Positions 6,779 to 7,886 of a stretch of 64,000 bases of DNA are shown piece after piece. The notes beneath the pieces were generated by a model. That model ran no database searches. It saw nothing but the letters and a program-made list of their open reading frames with translations, and was not told the DNA's origin. Within the stretch, counting starts at the first letter, position 1, and each line of letters starts with the position of its first letter. The stretch is from Acidobacteriota bacterium (GTDB lineage: Bacteria > Acidobacteriota > Holophagae > Holophagales > Holophagaceae): the NCBI GenBank assembly GCA_016213735.1, contig JACQZU010000023.1, forward strand, positions 1 through 64,000. Direction: 5' to 3'. Position numbers and translations under genes: made by a program.

Positions 6779-7167
6779 GGGGGTGACCGGTTTCGACAGG
6801 TCATGAACCGGGCGTCCGGTGCAGGCGGGGGTTGGACGGCTGGCCCCCTTATCAAGCCGCCCAAAACAAACTGCCAACGATAACTTCGAACTGGCTCTCG
6901 CCGCCTGAGCAATCAGGCTCCGAGCGAGGATCCGTGATCTCCAGGTAGCGGACTCGTAAAACCCTCCGACGGGTGGCTCCGGCCTGCCGGACGAGGGAAC
7001 TGGATGGGATGCGCGGACGCCCCCGACGCGCGGCCGAGACCAGGGGGCAAGGACGCCGGACGGCTCGTCCGTTCCCCGCCGGCGCCCCCCAAGAGCGGAA
7101 CAAGCCTGTGGATGAACCGCCGAACGGCATGTCTTGGATGCGGGTTCAACTCCCGCCACCTCCACCA
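6779..7167 (+). ncRNA. ssrA: tmRNA (transfer-messenger RNA)
   Basis: The 389 nt RNA rescues stalled ribosomes. The 5' end GGGGGTG (6779-6785) pairs with CACCTCC (7157-7163, one G-U), followed by discriminator A and an encoded CCA (7165-7167). The conserved GGTTTCGAC follows the 5' strand. The T-arm is GCGGG-TTCAACT-CCCGC (7140-7156). The tag frame runs 6873-6908 and encodes ANDNFELALAA then TGA, ending in the LAA degron typical for ClpXP. A strong terminator follows at once. The 3' end is repeated in inverted orientation just downstream (see repeats). Confidence 0.95.
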
Positions 7168-7222
7168 AACAGGGCCCCACGGGGCCCTTTTTGGTGGAGA
7201 AAAGTGGCGGGAGTTGAACCCG
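7141..7222. repeat. Interrupted palindrome built on the tmRNA 3' end
   Basis: CGGGTTCAACTCCCGCCAC (7141-7159, T-arm and start of the acceptor strand) is the exact reverse complement of 7204-7222. CTCCACCAAA (7160-7169, including CCA) is the exact reverse complement of 7190-7199. The terminator stem sits between them and only AAAA (7200-7203) is unpaired in the right arm. The two arms together give 29 bp of perfect inverted repeat around the terminator, so a readthrough transcript could fold the tmRNA T-arm and CCA into a competing hairpin. Confidence 0.85.
7171..7192 (+). terminator. tmRNA rho-independent terminator
   Basis: AGGGCCCC (7171-7178), loop AC, GGGGCCCT (7181-7188), then TTTT. The perfect 8 bp GC-rich stem starts 3 nt after the tmRNA CCA. 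It is the centre of a much longer palindrome. Confidence 0.9.
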
Positions 7223-7380: not shown

Positions 7381-7498
7381 GGCGGGAGTTGAACCCGACC
7401 CAAGGGCGCGCCGGTAGGTTCAGGCGAGAACGCGCAGCGTTCGAGCCGGTCCGGCGAAGCCGGAGAACCGGGCGCAGCCCGCGGGAGGCATGCACCTC
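7381..7498. repeat. Composite repeat downstream of tmRNA, copy B
   Basis: Module 1 (7381-7415) matches copy A from GGCGGGAGTTGAACCCG onward. Module 2 (7421-7498) carries a diverged first hairpin but the same CCGGC-GAA-GCCGG and GGGC-GCA-GCCC stems and the same CGGGAGGCATG end. The modules are a few bases apart, as in copy A. Confidence 0.75.
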
Positions 7499-7550: not shown

Positions 7551-7756
7551 GTGGCGGGAGTTGAACCCGACCCAAGGGCGCGCCGGCTGACGAGGACACG
7601 TCCTGTGCCCTCGCCCTTTGGGCGGCCATCGCCTGCGGCGATTCCGTCCTATTCCTCAATCCTGAGGAATGGTGGTTCAGGCGCAGGACGCACCGCGTCC
7701 AAGCCGGTCCGGCGAAGCCGGAGAACGGGGCGCAGCCCGCGGGAGGCATGCACCTC
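7551..7756. repeat. Composite repeat downstream of tmRNA, copy C with insert
   Basis: Module 1 (7551-7586) again contains the exact 19-mer complementary to tmRNA 7141-7159. Module 2 (about 7676-7756) follows after some 90 bp of unrelated sequence rather than 5 bp. Copies A to C share one orientation and fill most of the stretch between the tmRNA and gmk. Nothing else is recognisable from 7168 to 7886. Confidence 0.7.
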
Positions 7757-7886
7757 CACGATCCTGAGATCTCCACCCCCCGGCGCGGGACGGGAAGGGC
7801 CGACGGCGGGTCGAACGGGACCCCGGGGCGGAGGCCGGGAGGCAGGAGGGGCCTCCTTTCGCTACCATGGTCGGTCGGGAGGTTCC

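Follow-up and report, generated by a model that had tools for sequence, protein, structure and literature searches.

A palindrome at the ssrA 3' end in a Holophagaceae genome and its probable origin in a gene-less repeat unit associated with tRNA and tmRNA genes

Palindrome and repeat array behind ssrA

The window analysed here, a 64,000-nucleotide stretch of a Holophagaceae genome, contains a tmRNA gene, ssrA, encoding the tag peptide ANDNFELALAA. The 3' end of this gene is repeated in inverted orientation beyond its terminator (Table 1): positions 7141-7159 are the exact reverse complement of 7204-7222, and 7160-7169 that of 7190-7199, with the AAAA at 7200-7203 left unpaired as a bulge in the right arm. 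An earlier note on this DNA had described such an inverted repeat with a single AAAA bulge, and the arms proved exact as claimed. Two details needed correction. The CCA does fall within the left arm but ends at 7167, positions 7168-7169 being two A residues beyond it, and the central terminator stem is present but comprises 7 bp (7171-7177/7182-7188), not 8. Across the 64-kb window, the palindrome is the sole exact inverted-arm pair of at least 14 nt within 120 nt. In 20 dinucleotide-matched random sequences (first-order Markov), such seeds averaged 0.4 at 14 nt and were absent at 16 and 19. Its folding energy lies at z = -11 relative to dinucleotide shuffles. Elsewhere in the window, positions 1-195 form a GC-rich tandem repeat (83-nt unit, 2.4 copies).

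The right-arm sequence recurs twice further downstream, a fact that the earlier note did not mention, and these recurrences belong to an array of three units extending from 7190 to approximately 7760. Each unit consists of an inverted tmRNA 3' end followed by an 81-nt branched body. The inverted-arm sequence was not found elsewhere in the genome, being confined to ssrA and its three units. Right-hand direct copies of the tmRNA 3' end survive in this array as short relics only; the one to the right of the third body is weak and is not proof on its own.

Table 1. Features of the ssrA locus and its downstream array (window coordinates)
Feature	Position	Strand	Basis or remark
tmRNA gene ssrA	6779..7167	+	ARAGORN; Rfam RF00023; target gene of the array
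Left (functional) arm: T-arm, acceptor 3' strand, CCA and two A	7141..7169	+	sequence comparison
Intrinsic terminator hairpin, 7-bp stem, loop CACG, then T tract	7171..7188	+	folding
Right arm: inverted tmRNA 3' end, left edge of unit 1	7190..7222	+	7190-7199, AAAA, 7204-7222
Unit 1 body: P1, GGTAG joint, P2, hairpins P3 and P4	7226..7307	+	models R1/R2, 89.8 bits with R1; covariation
Unit 2 inverted tmRNA 3' end	7381..7397	+	sequence comparison
Unit 2 body	7401..7481	+	paired changes in P2, P3 and P4 relative to unit 1
Unit 3 inverted tmRNA 3' end	7551..7569	+	sequence comparison
Dispersed repeat X	7588..7675	-	inside P1/P2 joint of unit 3 body; 14 genome matches
Unit 3 body remainder: P2-P4 and P1 3' strand	7667..7739	+	body model
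Direct-copy relic of tmRNA 3' end, CACCTCCAC	7751..7759	+	right of body 3; weak

The third body is interrupted by a dispersed repeat of about 90 nt, repeat X, which occupies the same body joint in three arrays (those of ssrA, tRNA-Leu and a tRNA-Ser). A "long form" of the body, considered as a functional variant, was rejected on examination, being actually the short form with repeat X inserted. Several matches of repeat X directly follow the CCA of tRNA-Leu(tag), tRNA-Leu(cag) and a tRNA-Met, and others lie away from tRNAs (loci noted for X: 7588-7675 of the window, L185, L192 and L195).

The earlier note proposed that a readthrough RNA could trap the tmRNA 3' end in a rival hairpin. In-silico folding bears out the hairpin: RNA extending through 7222 loses the acceptor stem, and 7142-7169 become fully paired with the right arm. 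The mature tmRNA and the terminator-ended RNA retain the acceptor stem. On these models, burial of the 3' end would apply to readthrough RNA only and would not be specific to tmRNA, and trapping of the tmRNA 3' end appears without support as the function of the right arm. The other proposed role, as a processing signal, is not supported for a tmRNA-specific signal by comparison with other loci. By model and pattern searches, about 19 of the 42 tRNA/tmRNA genes of the same genome have an inverted arm behind them, which rules out a tmRNA-only signal, and the arrangement is unevenly distributed behind ssrA in relatives. The region downstream of ssrA carries a body (together with the arm) in the genome studied here and a body at two other loci (L040 and L183); in L035 and L042 an inverted arm is present and the body model finds no match; most other relatives have neither. 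From this survey, therefore, the presence of the unit behind ssrA is patchy, the right arm being missing from most relatives and conserved in a few rather than absent in all. Another repeat (TGTGTCGCGG...) lies behind ssrA in L026, L030 and L035, in the last case between the terminator and the inverted arm.

A folded body shared by many tRNA loci

Bodies matching those of the ssrA array follow tRNA-Leu(CAA), tRNA-Asn and tRNA-Gln on other contigs of the genome, and two more arrays, located at contig starts, have tRNA-Ser-like arms. In each array the arm is the reverse complement of the local tRNA 3' end, which the ends of other tRNAs almost never match equally, and the body is common to all. 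A scan with the body model detected bodies in 34 of 61 Holophagaceae genomes, many of them draft assemblies in which arrays at contig ends are incomplete. At a stricter cut-off, 20 of 297 genomes in a phylum-wide sample had a body, all of them Holophagaceae, and a 21-base exact body motif searched in 84,980 species genomes matched Geothrix and Holophagaceae records only. The visible upstream gene of a unit is in every case one for a tRNA or tmRNA, with at least 12 kinds represented. Among 30 loci inspected, the body lies about 50-75 nt past a tRNA 3' end, or is part of an array that follows one, where the contig shows the upstream side; several loci have tandem units. A phage or plasmid origin was rejected, as no body match was found in plasmids, phages or IMG/VR. 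A search of open PMC papers found no published match for tRNA-linked inverted repeats of this sort. The units constitute a family of short, folded, non-coding DNA elements in Holophagaceae that had not been labelled before.

Alignment of ten bodies from the genome defined an 82-column fold: P1 (9 bp with one bulged A), a GGTAG joint with an invariant TAG, P2, and a fork into hairpins P3 and P4. Fifteen of its 28 pairs are altered on both sides within these ten copies. In 56 copies from many genomes, aligned by fitting to the model, 95.6% of cells are paired (a sliding control drops to 29-47%) and double changes affect 26 of 28 pairs, a result matched by none of 500 shuffles. Of 53 copies, 37 close P4 with a C(GNA)G triloop. 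RNA genes favour G.U pairs, and C(GNA)G loops form very stable DNA mini-hairpins. Since G.U and A.C mismatches are roughly equal in the bodies (25 and 19) and such triloops prevail, there is a hint, though not proof, that the fold under selection is that of the DNA strand.

The strong covariation of the body could also be read as that of a structured RNA gene, whose product, a tRNA readthrough RNA scaffolded by the body and antisense in its 5' part to the 3' half of the tRNA, would tune tRNA/tmRNA maturation or capture tRNA fragments. The complementarity of the arm to the local tRNA agrees with this, as does the in-silico pairing of readthrough RNA with the tmRNA 3' end. We nonetheless hold it to be unlikely. 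The arm sits immediately behind the terminator, leaving no space for a separate promoter; G.U does not clearly exceed A.C, unlike in typical RNA genes; and at several loci the arms have drifted or been lost. No unit matched an Rfam family above the gathering cut-off, where tRNA and tmRNA were the only matches, and a permissive search returned matches that were at chance level or tRNA/tmRNA-like only. Displaced 3' fragments (see below) are left unexplained by an RNA gene.

The order of the parts, a variable segment preceding a conserved fold, recalls guide-scaffold RNAs of the OMEGA (IscB) type, in which case the inverted arm would serve as guide and the body would be the scaffold. This seems extremely improbable: no match to the HEARO covariance model and none to an IscB protein, including the IscB N-terminal domain PF14239, was found in the genome. 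The invariant TAG within GGTAG, preceding the P2-P4 fork, is in turn reminiscent of REP/BIME-like elements, in which an IS200/RAYT-type Y1 transposase is associated with GTAG at the hairpin foot. Like REP/BIME repeats and MITEs, the units are short, non-coding hairpin repeats dispersed within one clade. Unlike them, they are tied to tRNA/tmRNA genes, to which REPs are not linked, and have target-derived termini. Moreover, the genome is without Y1_Tnp, and so are G004, G009, G012 and G041, which have units, whereas G050 has five Y1_Tnp copies and no unit. The absence of co-occurrence largely refutes a REP/RAYT origin, which we judge very improbable. The five Y1 (IS200-type) transposase copies of this unit-free Geothrix genome (G050:C1) have identical scores.

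Target-derived ends, displaced copies and probable exchange of bodies

The complete anatomy of a unit comprises the tRNA 3' end with its terminator, the inverted copy, 4-5 nt of the ATCAC type, the 81-nt body, a short right part and a displaced 3' fragment. A tRNA or tmRNA gene on the same strand lies within 900 nt upstream of 50 of 64 unit copies. In 45 of these 50 the inverted arm, whose usual end point is tRNA nt 54 or 49, scores at least 10 against that gene, and in 38 a right-hand direct copy of the same 3' end also scores at least 10. Direct copies start mostly at nt 57 (18 units) or nt 50 (9 units; 13 for nt 50-52 taken together). The 3' ends of tRNAs from other loci seldom match as well in either scoring.

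The most detailed case is a Geothrix locus, L081. There the working tRNA-Gln gene ends in CGA, not CCA, and is followed by a new terminator, while the displaced copy retains CCA together with a terminator homologous to that of tRNA-Gln(ttg) in the genome studied here. The displaced terminator scores 33 in this comparison, where shuffles reach at most 21.5; the functional side scores 8.5, a value reached by 661 of 1000 shuffles. This pattern is the signature of integrative elements that rebuild the tDNA and leave its fragment behind. Three Geothrix tRNA-Gln loci (L079, L081 and L082) have a functional gene reading CGA where relatives encode CCA. A separate observation concerns Geothrix tRNA-Glu (L064, L175, L178-L179), which is an insertion hotspot: the genes behind it differ between species, and in two genomes the displaced 3' end is found far downstream, at 11 kb and 38 kb, which suggests islands.

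Comparison of units with one another indicates that bodies move between loci, because the flanks of Asn units 1 and 2 are 100% identical on both sides while their bodies are only 70% identical, and because the first tmRNA body is closer to Leu bodies (88%), its nearest relatives, than to the second tmRNA body (76%). One Ser body likewise has its nearest relative at the other Ser locus. Judged from such comparisons, the compensatory changes between neighbouring units may reflect exchange of whole bodies rather than drift.

These data bear on the view that the units are a mutational by-product. Template switching of the replication fork at the terminator hairpin would invert the tRNA 3' end, unequal crossing-over would generate arrays, and quasi-palindrome correction would preserve pairing, all without selection or mobility. 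In L073 the arms and terminator do form one continuous perfect palindrome reaching beyond the mature tRNA, L081 and L082 show matched changes in both arms, and the near equality of G.U and A.C fits such an origin too. However, it leaves unexplained the same body at about 12 kinds of tRNA, the exchange of bodies between identical flanks and the displaced fragment with its ancestral terminator, and we regard it as rather unlikely.

Probable integrative behaviour and comparison with known elements

We think it probable that the right arm of the palindrome forms the left edge of a mobile repeat unit, structured and non-coding, which inserted at the ssrA 3' end and then gave rise to the three-unit array. 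The units are best read as non-coding integrative elements moved in trans by a putative recombinase. Their effect on the host and their mechanism we infer as follows. Insertion would occur by recombination in the T-arm, the T-loop sequence being common to nearly all tRNAs. The unit would supply a 3' end and a terminator of its own and thereby restore the gene, and survival of the host would follow from this regeneration of the tRNA gene end. The putative recombinase would act in trans and recognise the body through its folded DNA strand. On this view the long hairpin that readthrough RNA forms over the tmRNA 3' end would be a by-product, possibly with a mild readthrough cost. The earlier note suggested that the hairpin might attract or block integrases that use ssrA 3' ends. 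Its link to insertion there was broadly correct, since the behaviour of the units resembles that of insertions at the 3' ends of tRNA and tmRNA genes.

Several observations weigh on the other side. It would be unusual for one recombinase to serve a set of more than 10 tRNAs, each with matched arms. The units, themselves 150-300 bp long and gene-less, could not be tied to an integrase or any other enzyme, and the analysis revealed neither an excision product nor a near-identical strain with a clean empty site. Other points on this side are the inverted copy, which is foreign to the att pair of a normal island, and the reduction of the right-hand direct copies in the ssrA array to short relics. 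The restriction to Holophagaceae shows no sign of horizontal transfer and counts against mobility.

Genomic islands restore the tDNA and leave its 3' fragment, with the T-loop as one crossover subsite (PMC4383910), and phage Ms6 integrates in the T-loops of tRNA-Ala genes and can be targeted to another tRNA-Ala gene when its attP core is matched to it (PMC1762012). The units share with islands of the Islander type, which depend on tyrosine integrases, an intact tDNA on one side, a displaced 3' fragment starting in the T-arm on the other, a rebuilt tDNA with new 3' end and terminator, a probable crossover in the T-loop/T-stem subsite, and tandem arrays. They differ from them in their size of about 150-300 bp, below the 2-kb lower limit that Islander applies (PMC4383910), in having no integrase and no genes, in their many tRNA targets per genome and in the extra inverted copy of the 3' end, which is not part of the normal att pair of an island. 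The units thus work like tRNA-targeting integrative elements but are not filed as members, because they have no integrase and carry the extra inverted copy.

Other known repeats resemble the units in part. Integron attC sites, like the units, are arranged in arrays and fold as a single strand in which the structure is conserved and the stems vary. In contrast to attC, the units have no tied integron integrase, have tRNA-matched arms and adopt a different fold. At E. coli tyrT, 178-bp tandem units each contain 19 bp of the tRNA-Tyr 3' end and are associated with rtT RNA. These repeats too form a tandem series downstream of a tRNA gene and contain part of its 3' end, but at a single locus, in direct orientation only and with no body known to be shared with other tRNAs; no Rfam match named rtT was found among the units, the presence of an rtT model in the library being unconfirmed.

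It seems conceivable, and we propose it tentatively, that the units represent a new class of gene-less mobile DNA, whose ends are rebuilt from the tRNA or tmRNA gene on which it lands, so that one core colonises many. If this is true, a folded core could occupy a large share of a genome's tRNA genes without killing its host. Genes for tRNA and tmRNA are the chief docking sites of bacterial islands and phages, and a gene-less unit that occupied about half of a genome's tRNA genes, with its ends tailored to each, would show one element using many tRNA targets. The units would also account for hairpins behind tRNA/tmRNA genes to which a regulatory role might otherwise be assigned, and they would give Holophagaceae tRNAs new 3' ends, such as the change of the encoded CCA to CGA in some Geothrix tRNA-Gln genes.
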